64,000 nt of DNA from Paramecium tetraurelia. Taxonomy: Eukaryota; Ciliophora; Oligohymenophorea; Peniculida; Parameciidae. The stretch lies in contig NW_001798984.1 of NCBI RefSeq assembly GCF_000165425.1, positions 188,539 through 252,538 of the forward strand, read 5' to 3'. Below, piece by piece: positions 40,056 through 55,973 of the stretch (its first letter is position 1; every line of letters begins with the position of its first letter). A program made the translations under genes and the position numbers. The notes under the pieces are model-generated. The model made no database searches and was not told the origin of the DNA. It saw only the letters and a list, made by a program, of their open reading frames with translations.

Positions 40056-41414
40056 ATGAAAATTTTAAGCAAGAAAATAATAAAGGGAGTTGGATTCATA
40101 AAAGTAGTGCCTGAAGAAGATGATGACTTTTGGCATTTGTATAATCTATTGTCTGTTGGAGATATAATAAAGACAAGCACACACAGAAAGATAGTGAAAG
40201 AAAGTAATTATAGATATGATTGATTAGGTTAAACTGGTACTAAGGTTTCTGAGAAAAGAAGGATATTTGTATTTTTAAAGGTTCACGAAATTAATTATTG
40301 GGCAGATCAATATCTATTGCTATCAATAAAGGGCAGAAATTGCTAAGAATCTCATTGGTTATCTTTGGGCTAATTTCATACCTACGAAGTTGAATTGAAT
40401 TAGAAAATCGTAATATACAAAGAAAATTGGGATAGATTTCATTATGCCATCTTGGATTAGATCAAACAATAGTAAACTTTATCAGAGGTGGCAGCATTCA
40501 TAATGGAGGAAGGAGTAGGTCACTTATGTTTGATAGGATCAGCTACTACTAGATTGAAGTAAAAAGTAGAGAAATAGATAACAAAGAAGAGAAGTGCTAA
40601 TGAGTAAAGAGAGAAGGCAATGGAAGAGTTTTTTAAAGCATGTTTAGCAGCCTTGGAATAAGATTCATTATTTGAATAAGTAAAATGTTTGATTGTGGCA
40701 TCTCCAGGGTAATAGTAATGAATATCATATAGATATGTGAAGGATGATTTCTATTAGTTTCTGAGAAATATATTTTAAAAGGAGGAGAAGTATAAGGGAA
40801 AATAGAAAATGTTAGATAAGATCTTTCTAGTAAGATCAAGTTCAGGCTATTTGAACAGTTTAATGGAAATTCTATAGGATCAATAGGTTTAGTAAAGATT
40901 AGAAAATACAAAGTAAAATATTCGAAAAATATTTAGAGCTATGCAAGAAGTGATGATCTTGGAGAAGTTCTTTGAGTAACTTCGAATAGATATAACTAAA
41001 GTTGCTTATGGAAAGAAAGATGTTGAATTTGCTCATAGTCTTGGTGCAATTCAGACTCTATTAATAAGTGATAAAGTGGCAAGAGCCAAAGATCCAAAAG
41101 TAAGGAGATAATGGCTGAAAGTGATTGAAGAGATCAAGAACAAGGGTGGAGAAGTGTTTATCTTCTCTAGTTTACATCCTTCTGGAAAACAACTGAACAA
41201 CTATACTGGAATAGCAGCTATTTTATATGTTTCAGTTTCGTTTGATTATGAAGATGATGACGAAGATGAAGATGAGCAAGAACCAGTTGGTTAATAGATT
41301 CATTAACAGTAACACTAACATGCTTAAGATGAATTCAAAATGGACATGGTAGTCTAAAAGAAATTTGAAGAGTTCGGCATGGAAGATGGTGATGATGTCG
41401 ATGATGATATTTGA
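40056..41414 (+). CDS. PELO: pelota (Dom34), ribosome rescue factor
   Basis: ATG 40056 ([20 protein letters not shown]), TGA 41412-41414. It has the three eRF1-like domains: N-terminal [20 protein letters not shown], central [18 protein letters not shown] and [13 protein letters not shown], and C-terminal [20 protein letters not shown] with [18 protein letters not shown] and YTGIAAIL. The end is acidic ([10 protein letters not shown]), as in other eukaryotes. It has no GGQ motif, so it rescues stalled ribosomes with Hbs1 rather than hydrolysing peptides. A 24-nt intron near 40205 and at least one more after 40870 are needed. It lies back to back with the SIZ-type ligase gene. Confidence 0.93.
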
Positions 41415-43732: not shown

Positions 43733-46700
43733 ATGCGAATTCCCTAAGCTTACTATGAAAGCATGGTTAGAAGATATAAGAAGTCTAAGCATGTCGATTC
43801 AACTGATTACTCTTGGATTGAAACAACCAAGAAGCCTCTTGTAGAAAGAATTTAAGATTTTGCATAATGCAAACAATTGTAGGATCCCATGTATACACGC
43901 ATCATCTGTGAAACAATTGACACAATATTCGAAGCAGCAGTTGCTTTATTTCAAGACCAAGACCAGACCCTCTGCATTCAATTGCTGGGTGAATCCGATT
44001 CTATTTAAATTTGGGATTTGTGTTTATTGTGTTGCGATTACATACTCAAGTCAACAAATTCAAAAATACGTATTTCTATTTAAATAATTTAAAGTCGACA
44101 TGTTTTTTAGTTATGAACATATTTTGACTCTAATATTTCACAATCCAGATTATGAAATATAAAAAATATATAAGTTGGTGCAATGCATGCAGTATTTGAT
44201 TGAATCAATGAATGCATCTAAAGCCTGTAAATTTAAAAGTACTGATTAAATTATTAATCATAGTTGAATAATTTGAGAAAGTCTTTATAAGATTCATGTA
44301 TATTAGCGCATTTTTGTAAAGGAATATCTACAATTTGTCAGATTAGGAATATCAGGAATTATTTTAATATTCTACTGACAATTACAATCTCAAAATCACC
44401 ATCCCAAATGAAGACATGAATATTTATCAAAGGTATTTGGAGCTGAGCAACATCAGAAAAATACTCAAGTCTCCACCAGTAATCTTAGACATTCCCTTTG
44501 ATTGTACCAAAAATCCATTGGACCAAAGTTTATAGATTGCAGCTGAAATTAAAGTCTAAAAAGATAGTATACTATTTGATTAGATCTTCATCCGATTACT
44601 TTGTCAATATTCTATTGATGAAAAATTGCTGCAAAAGATGTTCTTAAGAAATTTCATATTTCATTTTAAATGCACTTTCTCAGAATTGCAGTTAATCAAT
44701 CCCAAATTTATGACAGACATCACCAATAGGTTGATAGATCAAAAGGATTTCCTATTTTTATTAATAAGGAAGATTGCTAGCGAAAAGGATTTATTTTTAG
44801 AAGATACCTTGGTGGAGAGTTACAAATTTATTAAATCAAAGCAAATTTAATTATATGAGCATAACACATTCTTGGATAAATTATGGTTATTTGAATTATA
44901 AGGAATACAAGACACTTTAAATTGGTGGAAGAAAGAATTCAAAATCACTGAAGGGAATTTCTATGATAGTAAGATGGAATTAAATGATAAATTAAAATAA
45001 TTGTTCTTTTAATAATTGTGTGATCAACAATTTACATAGATGTTTAAAAAATAACCAAACTATACATAATGGAATTTCATCATTATTCAAATCATAAGAA
45101 AATCATTAGTATAAGATGATGGAACCAAATTGCCATATTACATCTTAAATCCAATCTTAACCTATTCTGTCAATCTGATCACTGAATTGCCTGCCAATAA
45201 CCAAAACCAGCAATTGGATTATCAATTAGAAAGTCAGATAATTTAGGGATTAATGGAGATCCTTAAGAATTGTATTAAGAAGCCCCAAATTCAATTATAA
45301 ATCAGAGCAATTCAATTATTAAATCAATTGGTGACATACTATAAACAAGAATTTGATTAAGTGTAGATTCAAAATGCATAGTCCGAATTCCTGATACCAG
45401 TTCCTGAACGATATCACAAATTATTAACTGAAATCTGGTCAAACAAAATTTTAGAAGGTACTCTACTTGCAGCTCAAGAACTCAATGAAACATTATACAC
45501 CTATTTGATTACATTATTAGCTATAACAATGGGAGAGAATCCTGCCAGAGTAAGATAATTCTGTGAAAATAATAGTTTGTAACTTCTGATCGACAAAATT
45601 TTTGAATTATTGAAGATATGCTCAAGAGCATCCCCATTAATAGTAACAATTATAAATTTGTTGATTGCAATCAGTACTAATGAATAAGCAATTTCATTAA
45701 CTTAATAATCGAATAATAGTGGAGATAAATAAGAAAAAGATAATTTGATTAAGAGGATATTTATCAAGTGTTATTTGCCTTCAGTCGAGTTAATAAATGA
45801 CCCAACAGTGAGTGATGATTTTGCCAAGAAGATTATTATGCTGTATAGTCAAAGCATGTTGGCAAAAAAGTAAATAGAGAAGGTGATAGAGAACACATTT
45901 GTTCAGATATCATCATTGGTGGATTTGAGTAAAGATAAGATAGAGGAAATTGTGAGTAATTAAGATAAGCTACAATCCTTTTATAGTTCTTCAAAAAGCT
46001 TGTAGGCATTATTACAGTTGTTCATGCAATTACAACCAGAGAGGAAATCTTCATATCGATCATTCCAAGGATATGAAGAATTACAACTAGAGGAAGCTTA
46101 GAGATAAAAGGATATATTGTTCAACTCTCTTTTGAAGAATTAAAAATTCGTAGAAGCCTTGGAGAAGATAATTATGAGTCCAATTCTGATAGGTAGTAAA
46201 AATAAGGATACCTATGTTGAACACTACGTTGGCATTTTGTGTAAGAAAAATAAGTTGAATCCTTATACTTCTTTATGGAAGGAATTGGATTTAATCTCTT
46301 AAAACTATATGGTAATAGGTGACTAGAAGATAATCGATATTGGGAAATTAGTGGATTATGATGCCTTATCCATCCATATGAGTGACAAATACTTTTTTAG
46401 AAAAATCATCAAACACATATCTCCTTAAACTTACAGAGGATTCTACATATTGAGTCGTTTCCACTTGATACATTATTTGATTAAGATGTGTGTGAATTAG
46501 GGTGTGGGATAAAATTAAGATGCCCATCTAATGATTTCATAATTGTTAGAAATCTATTTTCTATCCTCACAACATGCTGGTTTCCATGAATCTATTATGA
46601 TGTTTATGTCAGCTAAATAATAGGTCCAGAAACATCAGACTAGTTATGATGAGGACTCTTAAATAAGGAGAAGAATTAGTAAGGATAATTTGATTCCATT

Positions 46701-49700
46701 GCAATCATCCTGTTTGGATTTGATAAGCAAATTGTAATAGCATGCAGAACAAAAGGATTTTGTGGTCAAGAAATATGGGGAAATAACTTAGTTGTTCTTT
46801 TAGAATTTCTCAGAAAAGTGTCAATAACTTAAACAAGCTCAAGGAATTTAAATTGTTTCAATTGTAACTTATTTGTAAGATATGTTAAAATCATTCAAAT
46901 TCCTCTAGAATTTGTTTTTGAGTTTAGAACAACAGTACTAACCATTACAATTTGCTGTAATCTGTTTCCAAAATAGCAATTTCTTTTTGTCTTTGGTTGA
47001 GATTCTATAACATTTGGATAAGATCTAAAGACAGTAATAATTTAACGGAACAAAAGAATAAGAAATTATTAGAAAGATTTTACCTGGATTTATAGAAGCC
47101 ATACATCAACACATAGATAACATTATCAAACTATTGATTTTTAAGAAGATTTCAATCGATAAGATACAATTGTCAGATTAATTAATTCAGGATCCCTAAT
47201 AATTGGATATTGTATGCAATGAAATCTTTGTAGCTTAGGCATCAATAGTCAATTAAATGATTGATCTTCTTCTTTACAATAATTGCGAAGGTAGTTTAAA
47301 GACGCTGTTGGAACAACTAATATAGAGATTTTATTCAATCAAAGATCTATAAGTTTAGGATATGAGAAAGATAGCTGGAACTGAGACAAAAGAATAAATA
47401 ATTGGAAATAAGGATATTAATACAATTTTATCTGGTACTGATGGAAGACAAGAATAGAAAAAATCTTTGTTTGATCGACCTGAAATCAAGGCCATGATCG
47501 ATGACATTTGTGATATGGGATTCAAATAACAATTAATCAAGAAAGCTATTCAAAGGATTGAAATTCCTGAACCTACTATGATCATTGATATGTTGATCAA
47601 TGAGAGAATATCTGATGATGAAGAAGAGCAAGAAGATCCTTTTGAATTAGTGAAGAATGCAGAGTAAAATCAATAGGTTTAAGACTAATAAGATCAATAA
47701 TAATAAAATGTAGAAACTGAAACACAAAAAGAACAGAAGGAAATCTAGGCTTTGGATTAAGAATAATTTATGAAAATTTTAATATAAAATTTCCCATTAG
47801 CAAATACCTAATTAAATATAACAGAAAGGTTTTTGGGATTCATTGGTGATTTCTAATCAAAATTAGATTAAAATCTTAGTAAACTATTAGATTAAAATTT
47901 ACATAATCAAAAATCAAGTGGCAATTTGTTGGAATATCTATTTACAATTGCCAAGAGGTCATAACATATAAATAAGATTATTGAGTATATTTTTATGATC
48001 TTGAATCCCTTAAAATAAGATAAATCTTCTTAAGATTTAAATGCTACCATGATTCAATATTAGAAAGCATTACAATGGCTCAATTTATTGCAATAGATCG
48101 CTCCTCAAGAACATGAAAAACTATATTCGAATTTGGCTTTAATAGATCAAGAACCATAATCAAAGTATGTGCTCCAATTTCAATCTATGATTACAATTGG
48201 TTTTGCATTATCAAATGATATCTTCGATTAGTTTAAAAAGATTGGAAAATTAGAGTTGGACCAATTGAAACAACTTAAAATTTCAGAAATGACCTATACA
48301 GAAATCTATCAACAAGCACAAACAATAACTAATAATCTTAATATGCTATTTGAAACCAAGCAAACCACATTAAAATTATTCTGTAAAGAATTGTTAGAAG
48401 CACAAAAGTACCTTACCAAGTTTTTCTTGAATCTGCAAAATAAGCATGACTAATTAATTGAGAGATATTGGAATCAAATACTTATATATCTAGAATTTTT
48501 AATTTAAGTTTGCACAAACAATCTAGAATTATAGGAATACTCATAATAAACTTAGAACTTCCTTGATGAATTAGAAACAATAATTAGCAATAATTAATAA
48601 TTAAAATAATAAAGAGATTAATCTCAAAATAACATTTAATTAAGATAACTCATTTAAAGAAGATTCAATTCTGATAAACAATTGATCACATTATTATTAC
48701 AATGCTTAAATAATTTTGGATTGCATAATCAAGGCAAATTGTTCAGCATGTTAACCAAAAAGTAAACAAATTAAAAATAATCGTTATTGGACACTCTACT
48801 ATAATTGAAATTTTATAGCAGTCATTTAGAATATGAGGAATCTCAACCAGTGTTTCTTGAAAACTTAATCTATCTAGTCGCGATTGATAGCAAAACTACT
48901 AATGATTTAGTTTTCTAAATTTTGAAATAAGTTATGCTCAACGAACATATCGATTGGCATGCTCAATAATTAAAAAATACAGAAGATCTCAGCTAAATAC
49001 AATTCCCTTAAAAATTTATTGAATGTCCATTATAATATTTATTATAATTCCATCCTGTTTTAATTAATAACCCAATAGTCTATAATATGATAATAGAGCA
49101 ATAAGGTTTATCAATTACTGACAAATTTTCAGAATTACAAAGAATTCATGCTCCAAAATAGTCATTGCCTTAACCTACAGGGAAATTAACAAAAGAACAA
49201 GAGAGATTATTGAAGGAAAGAGAAAAAGAATTATAAGCTTAACCTTAGACTGACATTATCATTAGATACGAGGTCGAATAATTGATAGAGCCATAATTGA
49301 ACGAACACTTCATTGATTTAGTCAATATTATTGCTTAAACAACAATAGATAGATTTTTTGAAGAGAATTGTATTTTGATAGAATAGATATTCAAAATCTA
49401 ATGTAATCAATACAAGGACGACAATAGGATTTATCTTTATGGCTGGGATCAACTATTGAGAATAATTGAAATGCTCATTATTAAGATTCCTTAATTGGTA
49501 TTATATCTAAGACAATATTAATTTGTTCTACCGTCTAACTCAAAAACTGATTAGAAAAAGATCACTTTCATAGAATTTGTAATCAAATATTTGACATGGG
49601 TGGGAGGAGATAAATTGGCTAACTTTATGCACAACTACATCAGTGACATAAACTTGTTGTCTATTGGATATGGAGTCACTATTGCATAAGAGGTTTTACA

Positions 49701-52004
49701 ACTATTATTGAATGAATTGTAAATAGACATCAATTAGGAATAGATGATATAGAAATATTATCACATTTTATAACTATTAACCTTATTCACCTAGACTTTA
49801 ACCATGTAGAATTGCTGCATGATCTTAACAGATCAACGATCATAATTAAACATAATTCCTTAATTGATTGACACCTTGAATAAAATTAAAAATTGTGAAA
49901 ACAAGTAATTTGTTAAGACATATCAACAGACCATAGCCAAAGCATTGGAACCATTTTTGTAATCATAAATATACTATGATCACATTCAATATGGTAGATA
50001 TGGTGAAGTGTTCAGATTGCAATAGAGTATTACTGACAATCCATTCAAATATCATTATTTGCATTGTCTAAAAAATCAATTGATTTGTTATTCTTTGTAT
50101 CCCGGTTTTAAGAGTACCATAGGATCAGCATAGCATTTCATTTCTCATTAGCAAGTTCAATAAACTTTGAAAGATGAACACCAATAAGAATTAGTTTGGC
50201 CTCTTTATTAATCGAGGAAAAACTATAATAATCAAAGATAGAATAACTAGAAGTAATAAGAAGAAGACTTGAGTGATTCAGATTCAGATTAAGATATTCT
50301 TTAAGTAGATAATAATTAAATCAAATACAAAGCTAACTATTCGAATATTAATTCCTGGGGTTCTGATTACTATTATTATGACAATAATGATTTCATGTCT
50401 AAATACAGCATGAATCGAGATGATGACAGGGTTTAACGTGAAAATCAATAAAACATTTTCCCATAAAAAGACCTTAATATCTTATTTTGTAAAGTTGATC
50501 CACAGACTATTACTTTTAATTTACCCCCCTTATAAATCACAAAAGCAAGCATCTAATATAATTCCAGCGATTATAAATAGTGGATCACCTCTATTGTAGG
50601 ATTGTACTATAGCTCTAATGAATATTTTGAAAATAAGAAGTCTTTGATTTCTAAATCTTATGAAAATCAACTTAAAATCACAGTGGAAAATATTAATTAG
50701 ATCAATAGGATTTTATTGTCCTCAAATTATTATAGAAATAGATCAAATGATTTTATGCAATAATATCTCTCATACTATTTGAATGGAACACTCAATAACC
50801 TGTAAGTCTAGGCAAGTATTTGCTTCTATTCTAAATTTGGTTAGCCTCCTAATTAATTATAATAAGATTACCAAGCAAATTCATTGTCAATTAATATCAA
50901 TGAATCAAAATAACAATAACACAGAATTTTATGTTAAATATCATGCAATATTCTCCAAAGCAGAGTAGTTTTGAATGGAATGCCAAATGATTTACAAGAT
51001 TAAAACTTACTCAAAGCCAAACTATCAAGTTTATTACATCCTGAAGAACATCTTATAATTCAACCAATTATCTTGTAAATTCCAAAAAGATAATTTGCTT
51101 AACCTGATCCATAGCAACTATTCACCTATGATAATTTGGTTCTTGAAATTTTCATAAATCTACTCTTAGATGCAAATAATTTCCCTCAGTTTCCCTTTAA
51201 CTTATTCAGATAGATTTGTAAATGTCCCCGACTTGGATTTAAATTATTAATTTAGCTATTACTATTATTTTAGGAACAAAAACACAATTTAGATTTAACT
51301 TTGAGAATCTTGTATCTTGTAAGTCAAAAAATCCCTTCCACTATTCTTAGAGATTTGTTATCTGAATAATTATAGGTGAGTCCCATCTTGAATAGAAGAG
51401 AAAAAGCTAATCTGGCCAAGGTCTAAGAAATTAAAGAACAATTTGTGATTGAGGAAGAAGAAAATGTAGATGAATAACCTCAAGATGAGGATCCTGAGAA
51501 TCCTTTAGTCTTCTTAATTAACTAACTCAACACCTATTGTGAGAAAAATATTTCATTTATGAAACTATTTCATAATCCAGAATCTTATATACCTTTAGAA
51601 AAAAGTATAATTAATTTTATCTTTAGACATACTCTTGACACCATTATTAGCTAGCTAAACTGGAATGCATTTGTCTTACTTGCTATAAATCATCAGAGGT
51701 TCATTAATAGTGATTACTGAAGATCCCAAGGATAAGAATAGAAAGCATGATGAAGATTATTTATCAAAAATATAGAGAAGATAAGCCACAATCTTTACAA
51801 ATAATAACCAAGATGAACCCAATCATAAATTATTTGATCTTGTCTCTTAACTCAATAAACATGAGTAAGACGTAAATTTTGAAGAAATGATCTTCAAAAC
51901 ATTTGGAGATAGATATTCTGATAACTAATATGATTAATGGGAGCCAATATCTTACTTTAGTAAATAGCCTTTTTCATTTAGATAACATGAACTATAATAA
52001 TAAC

Positions 52005-52087
<83 letters not shown>

Positions 52088-54513
52088 TAATATTAACAAT
52101 AATTATAACAATAGTAATAATAATAATAGTAAAGATTTATTCTATAAAATACATCTATATTTTCAATGCCACAACCTCCCTAACCTTTACTACCTTAAAC
52201 ACTCCCTTAAAATCATCCTCCGATACCCTCTATATCAATACTTTAATAACAACAATAATCATTATAATAATTCTAATAATAACGTCAAAATTAATCATAA
52301 ATTTTGCAATAATCAGGAGCATAACAAGTTAGACAATTTTATGATAAGTTCTTTAAAATGAATGAAAATTAATAGGATTAATCTTAATCATATTAATAAT
52401 ACCTTAAACAGTTTTACGATAATATTATATAATCAAGACAGTAATAATAAAATCAGCAGTAATAAGAATAACAATAGAATCAGAATCAATAATAAAATTT
52501 GATACAAGAATAGCAGCCATAATAAGCTGAAGAAAAATTCTTAAATAATATTGAGGAGTTAGATGAATCAGACTCGAAATAATAAAAAAGAGAGAGAAAA
52601 GTGAGTGCAAAGATATCACATGTAGAAATCGATATAATTACCGCATTGTGCAAAATTCTGAATAACCATTTACTTAGAGATTGCAATTCTACTGAAATTA
52701 TTAACATACTTAATACATATGCAAATGATAGATTAAAAATAGAACATGCTATAAATGAATTGACAAAATATATAATATAGCAATCAAAGATATTCAATTA
52801 TGAGTTGGATAGAAAAAGAAAATAACTTAGAGAAATCACAAGCTAATTAGAAAAGGTGGCCGAGCATGGTCCTGAAAGATAATAGTAGTTGTCTCAATAA
52901 GAAAATGAAATAATCAGAGAACTTAATTAAAAAACACCAGATCCTAGTATCATTCAAAGATGTTTTATAGCAATAACAGGGTTTTTGAATATTAGCTTAA
53001 GTATATCAGATTAATAAAAATAATCTGCAAATAAACCAAGTTCATAATAAACTAGATAACAAATTTAATTAGATAAAAAGAAATATAAATTGCATTAACA
53101 AGGTAAAAATGTAGATGACTCATAAGAAGTTGACATTTTATCTAAGAAAGATATTAGAAAATAATTCATTAATATATTGTAAACAAGATAAACTCATCAT
53201 TTGTGGCTTAACGTAGTGGAAACATTATTATTGATTTTCAATTGTAAAGGTCAGAGATCATTAGAATTGTTATAGAAAAAACTTTACCCTCTTTTAGAGT
53301 GTTTCTTAAGGCTTTACTAAAATGTACATGACGATTCAAATAATTCAGATTCCCTTATTTCAGGTTCTTCTGATCCTAACTTTTTTGAGCGAAATGCAAG
53401 TGGATCTGCCACTAACTCATTGTAATTTGGCTTATTATAAACTCAGAACATTCATTTGAAGCGTTCATTTTCTGCAGTAAGAAATGAAAACGAAATGTAA
53501 ATGAAAATAGATGAACTATTCACTTATCTTTGTATTAATGGTAAACGACTCATTAATCATTTGATTTCATAAAGGCTTCAGTAGGTTACTATAGACCACA
53601 AGTAAAATTAGAATTCAAATCTCATCAAATTATTCAAAGAGACAGATCCTTTGGCTTTTGTTTTCTTTAAAATGAGTCAAATAATTTCTTTCGAGAATAA
53701 AAAGCACTTATTTGAATTAGATTTAGAGGCTTTGAAAATAAGTGAAAAATCAAATACTCGATCAAGAGGTAGATAAAATGAAACTATTGAAATAAATGTT
53801 GTTAGAGAAACAAGGCTATAACAATCGTTGGAAAAGGTTATTAATATTGATAAGGCGAAGTTTAGAAAATGCGATATTAAAATAAGATATCAAGGAGAAA
53901 AAGGTTAGGATGAAGGTGGCATTAGAAAGGAGTGGATGACTAATCTTGTTAAAGATATCCTTTAAACAGATAAATTCGAATTAACACCTAAAAGATTTTA
54001 CAAAATTAATCCAAATAAAAAAGCATAAGAGGATTTGAATCATTATAAACTATTAGGCAAAATAGTTGCTAAAAGTATTTACGATGGATTGCTTTTACCT
54101 GTTTATTTCATCTCCCCTATTTTTAAATAAATTCTTTAGAAAAAGCCTAGCTTTGATGATCTTGAGCATTATAATGAAGGATATTATGACACCTTTATAA
54201 AATTCTTAAATGATGAAACATAAGTTCAATATAAAGATTTATTTGAATTTTGGATTCCAGAAGAATATGCAAGTCTAATAGAATAAAACAAAAAACTTAT
54301 CTTTGCTGATCTACTTTAAGACTATATAGAAAAGAACCCTATTGAGATAAAATAAGAATAATAATCAGAGTAAGATTCTAAATAGGAGCCTTTATAAACT
54401 TAGGAGTAAGATTAACCAAAATAATAATCATAAGAATAATAATAGCAATAGGAATAATAAGAATAATAATAATAATAGCAATAGGAATAATAAGAATAAT
54501 AATAAGAATAGCA

Positions 54514-54547
<34 letters not shown>

Positions 54548-55973
54548 GAATAATAATAAGAATAGTAATAAGAATAATAATAAGAATAATAATAAGAATA
54601 ATAATAATAGGAATAATAATAGAAACAATAATAATAAGAAAAAAAATAGCAATAGTAATAAGAATAACAATAGTAATAATAGGAATAATAAAAATAATAG
54701 GAATAATAAGAATAACAGGAACAATAGCAATAGGATTCATAACAACAAGAATCATAGGAAGAAAAACAATAAATTTTGGAATGGGAATAACAAAAATATG
54801 AATAAGAAATACTATTGTAATAATAATTGCAACAATAATATCACTTCTAGAAATATTTATAAATATAAGAAGAATTAAAGAAAGAACAATTATTAATTTA
54901 ATAATAATAATAGTAATTATTAGATTAATATTTGATTTCTGAAACACAAAAACTATAATTCCTTACTCAGAATGCATTATAATAAAAATAAGAAGACTTA
55001 CAGTAATAAGAGGCATCATTATTAGAGCTAAATTTCGAATAATATGAATAATAATAATAATTATTATTATATCTATAATTGCAGTAAGAACATTAACGTT
55101 AATCCTAAAAACTTATGGAAGAAGAATAATAACGATTGGAATAGTAATAAAAATAATAAGCAGAATAAGCAGAATAAAATTAGGTAGAATCAGAAGTGAT
55201 GGTTCCACTCTTAAAAGCTCAGTCAGAGGGAAAATAATATAAAATAAAGAAGGAATCTGAAGACATTACAGCTGAAGATATGGAAAATAGGGAGAAGAAA
55301 AGACTTATTAGAAAGAATAAAAAAAAATAGTTGAATGATGAAGTTGTAAAATGCATTAAATTGTAAGAAGTGTTTGATAAATAAACTGCTCTTGTATCAA
55401 TTAAACATAAAAGATTAATTTGTGAATTTATTAGTAAAAGGATTATGTTGGAGGAGATCAAAAATTAAATTTCAGCATTAAGAGAAGGCTCCTTTGACAT
55501 TTTATCTAAAGAGCTTTTCTCTTACATGGATTGGAGAGATCTTTAAAAACTGATAATAGGAGTTCCTTCAGTAGATCGGTAATTTATTTTAATATTCCTT
55601 TAGTGGAAGATTTATAAGCAAATACTGAATACATAAATTACGATAAGAATAACTAAACAGTCTAATGGTTTTGGGAAGTCTTGACGACCTTAAGTGACTC
55701 TGAGAAAGCTGATTTCCTAATGTTTGCAACAGGAAGTCCTCTAGTTCCTTTTGGAGGATTTAAGAATCTAAGAGGTCCAAATGGTCCAAGAAAGTTCTCT
55801 ATTTCGAAAGACTTTAATAATGAACATTTTATTAAGGCTCATGCATGGTATTTATATTATTTATTTCTAGCTTTAATCGTATTGATTTGCCAGAATATTC
55901 TTCTAAGGATATATTAAGAGAAAAATTGCTAAAATCTTTAAAAGAATCAGGTTCAGGATTTGAATTAAGTTGA
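43733..55973 (+). CDS. giant HECT-type ubiquitin ligase (HUWE1/Tom1/UPL1 family)
   Basis: ATG 43733 (MRIPQAYYESMVRRYKKSKH), TGA 55971-55973, about 4000 aa. The N-terminal two thirds are helical armadillo-like repeats. A UBA domain lies near 47470-47600 (EIKAMIDDICDMGFKQQLIK). A conserved block near 51660 (ASQTGMHLSYLLQIIRGSL) is UPL-like. The HECT N-lobe starts near 53880 (GEKGQDEGGIRKEW; YKLLGKIVAKSI; LPVYF), then a Gln-rich insert, then the C-lobe: FWEVLTTLSDSEKADFLMF, TGSPLVPFGGFKNLRG, AHACFNRIDLPEYSSKDILR and a final GFELS. The catalytic Cys codon is split by an intron. Many introns of 22-37 nt occur near the ends; the middle is nearly intron-free. Confidence 0.92.
51995..52132 (+). repeat. 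(TAA)n microsatellite encoding poly-glutamine
   Basis: Within the HECT ligase frame this is 46 codons, 44 of them Gln. From 51995 to 52090 there are 32 Gln codons in a row, 30 TAA and two CAA, including 26 consecutive TAA codons (52007-52084). The frame is fixed by coding sequence on both sides (PISYFSKQPFSFRQHEL before, RFILQNTSIFSMPQPP after). The other two frames would read Asn or Ile repeats, but they end in TGA within about 300 bp. Confidence 0.9.
54349..55215 (+). repeat. Gln/Glu-rich low-complexity insert inside the HECT domain
   Basis: About 290 residues, over half Gln, with interspersed Glu, Lys, Leu and Ser. TAA and TAG dominate the Gln codons (GAA/TAA alternation around 54420-54720). 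From about 54780 the sequence becomes more complex and coiled-coil-like (YEQEILLQQQLQQQYHFQK; NRLEQQQKQQAEQAEQ type). It sits between the HECT N-lobe (ending near KNPIEIK) and the continuation QTALVSIKHKRLICEFISKR, so it lies in the domain's middle. Confidence 0.85.

Follow-up and report, generated by a model that had tools for sequence, protein, structure and literature searches.

The TAA-rich tract at positions 51995-52132 of the analyzed window (a 64,000-nt stretch of the Paramecium tetraurelia genome, located on contig C31, with a G+C content of 27.9%) is, very probably, a translated, in-frame poly-Gln segment in the low-complexity linker of a HECT ligase; a (TAA)n microsatellite that underwent slippage would have given rise to it, and the ciliate genetic code tolerates it. 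This assignment draws on comparisons of genomic sequence. Replication slippage of the microsatellite would generate the tract; (TAA)n would be tolerated in the coding frame because TAA encodes Gln in the ciliate code; and the tract would then be translated as poly-Gln, most likely as a flexible linker that is mostly neutral or only weakly selected. Under the standard code, a (TAA)n repeat is impossible in its own frame within a gene; here, such a repeat is allowed in frame, with the result that poly-Gln is encoded by an AT-rich triplet repeat.

Structure of the TAA tract

When the open reading frame 51635-55684 is translated with TAA and TAG as Gln codons, 26 TAA codons follow each other in succession at 52007-52084 of the forward strand and form the bulk of an unbroken run of 32 Gln codons (51995-52090; 30 TAA and 2 CAA). 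The codons TAT, TAA, CAA, TAA and TTA come next and lead into a second Gln block of nine codons (52106-52132) that consists of six TAA, two TAG and one CAA; altogether, 44 of the 46 codons in 51995-52132 encode Gln. Tandem Repeats Finder reports the same segment (51994-52132) as a period-3 array of 46.3 copies with 88% matches. The initial annotation had already counted 26 TAA and 32 Gln codons and had described the locus as a TAA microsatellite through which the reading frame of a HECT ligase passes. The counts were correct when re-read in the open reading frame, the codon count bears out the microsatellite, and the placement agrees both with the frame and with the homology of a duplicate gene on contig C171 that is described below. 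The two features that define the tract are:

51995..52132, forward strand: whole poly-Gln tract, with runs of 32, 3 and 9 Gln separated by one TAT and one TTA
52007..52084, forward strand: pure TAA run of 26 codons (an 80-nt pure array when the two preceding bases are counted)

When the window is described by a first-order Markov model, (TAA)26 is expected to start about 2e-28 times on both strands of the 69-Mb genome, and the probability that 26 Gln codons are all TAA is 6e-9 if codons are drawn as in the coding set (where TAA accounts for 48% of Gln). The run is thus far beyond chance; repeat slippage is its natural source.

The HECT ligase gene

The gene model that harbors the tract extends from an ATG at 43733, an inferred start codon, to a TGA at 55971-55973 and was assembled from open frames, GT-AG introns and the comparison with the C171 duplicate. 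The predicted protein comprises about 4000 residues (3923 up to position 55573), and the poly-Gln tract begins at about residue 2731, within a low-complexity linker that precedes the HECT domain. The features of the gene are:

43733..55973, forward strand: HUWE1/TOM1-like HECT ligase gene, ATG to TGA
44070..44094, forward strand: predicted intron, 25 nt (frame change and GT-AG; the spliced model is free of stops)
44239..44263, forward strand: predicted intron, 25 nt (frame change and GT-AG; the spliced model is free of stops)
51605..51626, forward strand: intron, 22 nt, joining exon 44264-51604 to the tract-bearing exon (frames match on both sides)
53987..54262, forward strand: HECT N-lobe, positions 21-115 of the Pfam profile PF00632 (E 3.6e-14)
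54371..55250, forward strand: a further Q/E-rich insert, located within the HECT domain and holding a TAA/TAG-rich array (54420-54772)
55603..55815, forward strand: HECT domain, positions 196-261 of the Pfam profile
55848..55870, forward strand: intron, 23 nt, read from the sequence, splitting a Cys codon that presumably encodes the active site of the HECT domain

The intron immediately upstream of the tract-bearing exon has a counterpart in the C171 duplicate, also of the GT-AG type and 25 nt long. Removal of the predicted intron 55848-55870 would join a Cys codon (55846-55847 plus 55871) and yield HACFNRIDLPEY, the presumed HECT active-site motif. The Q/E-rich insert within the HECT domain is about 290 residues long and includes an array with a 33-nt period; in the duplicate, the insert comprises roughly 60 residues.

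Searched separately, the pieces of the protein that match PF00632 score 53.5, 66.5 and 31.3 bits against a curated cut-off of 23.9, which identifies the product as a HECT protein; a Pfam search with the 1313-residue piece taken whole returned no row. The best match of the C-lobe in the PDB is HUWE1, and the N-lobe is matched best by NEDD4 and then by HUWE1, with the alignments of TOM1 and of a single HUWE1 chain beginning about 45-55 residues farther upstream than those of NEDD4. The C-lobe that is closest to HUWE1 and the model of about 4000 residues resemble the giant HECT ligases of the HUWE1/TOM1 type, whereas two features set the Paramecium protein apart: the Q/E-rich insert interrupts the HECT domain, and the 2446-residue N-terminal part has no match among PDB sequences (at E 0.1 with the single sequence and E 1 with a two-row profile) and hits no Pfam family. 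We therefore use "HUWE1/TOM1-like" as a putative name and do not claim membership in the subfamily. With a mean pLDDT of 34.7, an AlphaFold model built from a two-row alignment for the 595 residues from the KRERK motif to the HECT N-lobe was of poor quality.

Near the 3' end, a GT-AG intron at 55579-55603 is out of frame with the next HECT exon; the corresponding intron of the duplicate keeps the frame. The exon downstream of this intron is strongly conserved between the two copies (pS 0.85, pN 0.06). Assembly error, odd splicing and a recent lesion are all possible causes of the frame break, and this copy of the gene may be damaged or misassembled beyond about position 55579.

Genome-wide census of TAA arrays and decoding of TAA

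To place the tract in its genomic context, pure AAT-type arrays of at least 34 nt were counted by their left edge across the 69-Mb genome, giving 57 + 53 + 23 = 133 arrays; a backward control by the right edge gave the same total (22 + 69 + 42 = 133). Altogether, 115 of the 133 arrays were examined (39 of 57, 53 of 53 and 23 of 23), and the phase in which each would be read was scored from the codon bias of the flanks after masking every rotation of the Gln codons, along with the complements, and omitting 18 nt. The Gln phase was assigned to 82 of the 115 arrays, as opposed to 11 in Asn, 7 in Tyr, 11 in Ile (7 ATA and 4 ATT) and 4 in Leu phase; under a strict margin of more than 6 nats, 60 of 69 arrays were in Gln phase. 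Random anchors in the window, used as a control, spread evenly over the six phases, and among 84 held-out coding stretches, the masked score identified the correct frame for 74. The excess of the Gln phase corresponds to p = 3e-38, a value that overstates the independence of the arrays because some of these are located in duplicate genes or in the same gene. Pure (CAA)11 and (CAG)11 repeats, sought across the genome, were not found.

The interruptions of the arrays provide a further line of evidence. Among the 152 interruptions in the 82 Gln-phase arrays, there are 81 CAA and 41 TAG codons, and not a single TGA; among the 25 interruptions in the 33 other-phase arrays, there are 3 TAG and 4 TGA (Fisher p 1.8e-4 against the Gln-phase arrays). 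Given that TAG and TGA are each one A-to-G change away from TAA, the lack of TGA suggests that the Gln-phase arrays are translated.

The decoding machinery that can be predicted from the genome is compatible with this reading. A tRNA pattern search identified at least 10 genes built on one backbone, 6 with the anticodon TTA and 4 with the anticodon CTA, that is, at least six predicted genes for a UAA-reading tRNA. These genes come from the search with a gap of 13, which produced 23 matches, 10 from the TTA/CTA family and 13 with an Arg or Lys tRNA sequence; the single match obtained with a gap of 14 was not accepted as a tRNA. ARAGORN detected no tRNA in the 64-kb window, and the Rfam tRNA search, in which 63 of 4582 candidates were scored and 62 matched, included no Gln tRNA among the 19 examples fetched. 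The eRF1 encoded on contig C11 carries EAASIKD in place of the TASNIKS motif of a solved eRF1 chain; motifs of domain N, TASNIKS included, are described as important for stop recognition (PMC4482090).

The phase bias and the interruption pattern, taken together, bear out the reading of TAA as Gln in the initial annotation. Two other ideas fared less well. The data do not support the tract as exceptional: by length, it ranks only 16th among the 115 examined arrays, many of which are similar, and the longest array, of 148 nt, is in the Gln phase too. Nor does the tract appear to place an unusual demand on the TAA-reading tRNA, because TAA outnumbers every other Gln codon of the coding set (351 of 725, followed by 217 CAA, 121 TAG and 36 CAG); the at least six tRNA genes with the TTA anticodon are in line with this conclusion.

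A gene that combines eRF1_1 and eRF1_3 domains is located in the window itself, at 40059-41414 of the forward strand, about 12 kb upstream of the tract. Presumably, this is a Pelota/Dom34-like gene; TGA codons near 40221 and 40719 suggest that it contains introns.

Length differences between arrays in duplicate genes

Similar flanks were detected for 19 pairs of arrays, 5 of which (L078/L124, L122/L164, L122/L163, L138/L139 and L163/L164) were excluded as lying in the same gene or as sharing repeats only. The 14 measured pairs consist of 9 pairs with the Gln phase on both sides and two anchors, one pair without a second anchor (L073/L169) and 4 pairs in other or mixed phases. When the distance was measured between BLAST anchors, which were permitted within Gln-rich sequence, the difference, of 45 to 93 nt, was divisible by three in 8 of the 9 Gln-phase pairs, L057/L146 being the exception; with unique 12-mers lacking 3-nt periodicity as anchors, the count was again 8 of 9 (45 to 87 nt), the exception being L047/L082, and the measurement of L075/L080 relied on a single left k-mer. 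The two methods agree on a multiple of three in seven Gln-phase pairs. At a chance of one in three, the probability of at least 8 of 9 is about 0.001, although Gln-rich flanks can favor steps of three. For the 4 pairs in other or mixed phases, the remainders modulo 3 were 0, 1, 2 and 0 with BLAST anchors or 2, 2, 0 and 1 with 12-mers.

One of the pairs lies close to another pair of HECT matches on the same contigs: the arrays L050 (contig C58) and L059 (contig C138) occupy the same place in duplicate genes, are both in the Gln phase and measure 92 and 41 nt, with anchor distances that differ by 81 or 84 nt.

The duplicate gene and alternative readings of the tract

The C171 copy of the ligase aligns with the gene in the window in one frame on both flanks of the tract and itself lacks a long Gln run at this place, where it encodes few Gln. 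The shared residues include SQLN and FGD before the tract, and SILQQ, LQQFQQ and KRERKVSAK after it. The duplicate has a run of its own about 70 residues farther on, consisting of 26 Gln codons (TAA along with two TAG and one CAG), and another Gln run inside the HECT domain. Since the duplication, one of the two copies has either acquired the tract or lost it.

Judging from codon substitutions between the two copies, the ligase gene is under purifying selection. In the N-terminal 2171 codons, pS is 0.80 and pN is 0.18 (pN/pS 0.23); the 110 codons just upstream of the tract show a dN/dS of 0.14, with third-position changes accounting for 58 of 117 in the Gln frame. The signal is weaker immediately downstream, where dN/dS is 0.455 over 31 codons and third-position changes in 91 linker codons amount to only 44 of 108, and from 52532 onward pN/pS is 0.17. 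Conserved coding sequence thus flanks the repeat in its own frame before and after, if less strongly so downstream, and the combination of one-frame homology with the codon signal indicates that the sequence around the tract is coding.

The duplicate also bears on what, if anything, the tract does. Conceivably, it is a selected tuning element whose length determines how active or soluble the ligase is or which partners it has; the long Gln runs that both copies carry in the same linker and inside the HECT domain would fit this possibility. However, these runs are in different places, neither the position nor the length of the tract is conserved between the duplicates, and similar arrays occur at many loci, an observation that tolerance explains at least as well. 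Accordingly small is the weight we give to selected tuning, which we regard as unlikely.

It is even less probable, and indeed very much so, that the tract is untranslated, being part of an intron or located between two genes. GT-AG pairs that span the tract do exist, but the shortest is 155 nt long and the shortest that keeps the frame 243 nt (51872-52114), whereas the introns predicted in the ligase gene and in its duplicate are only 22-26 nt; the pure run at 52007-52084 contains no G and, consequently, no splice site. Moreover, the duplicate stays homologous as coding sequence in a single frame before and after the tract, and the interruptions of Gln-phase arrays are devoid of TGA.

Decoding in another phase, for example, of AAT as poly-Asn, is the least probable reading: even with standard decoding, 51903-52361 forms an open frame, and a 22-nt GT-AG pair just before the tract (51960-51981) would shift the frame if spliced, but the homology with the duplicate keeps to the Gln frame on both sides and the third-position changes upstream favor that frame, even if those downstream do so less clearly. 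The in-frame, translated poly-Gln tract of slippage origin is, then, the reading that we prefer.

Relation to previous work

The expansion of poly-Gln in ciliates is already published, and the new emphasis here is on TAA itself as the unit of slippage. A 2024 eLife study (PMC10942620) describes ciliates in which TAA and TAG encode Gln as having expanded both their poly-Gln motifs and their usage of Gln, gives TAA as the commonest Gln codon of P. tetraurelia (46.7%), and suggests a link between the reassigned codons and the avoidance of CAG slippage. The present census differs from that study in that the reassigned TAA itself is the pure repeat unit, in 133 arrays, with no (CAA)11 or (CAG)11. 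A 2020 survey of simple sequence repeats in nine ciliates, four of them Paramecium (Microorganisms, PMC7285179), considered coding codon repeats of at least 10; its printed Table 3 gives Gln repeats as CAA or CAG only, 0-3 per genome, and has no row for TAA or TAG, and thus, as far as that table goes, would miss the class of TAA arrays. Among the matches listed in a search of the open-access literature, no title beyond these two papers concerned TAA repeats as a poly-Gln unit.

On balance, we lean toward the view that poly-Gln in this genome grows chiefly through a former stop codon, as suggested by the repeats being of TAA rather than of CAA or CAG, by the drift of array length in steps of three and by the exclusion of TGA. 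If so, the reassigned code created a class of repeat instability rather than avoiding one, which bears on the published suggestion that ties reassigned codons to the avoidance of repeat slippage in ciliates. A repeat census in which TAA is not counted as Gln would overlook the principal class. The TAA arrays would also offer a natural test of whether poly-Gln instability needs CAG or can involve any repeatable triplet.

Some long arrays do not score as Gln phase, among them L158 (91 nt) and the arrays L130 and L132 (47 and 54 nt); these are possibly non-coding and would make useful controls.
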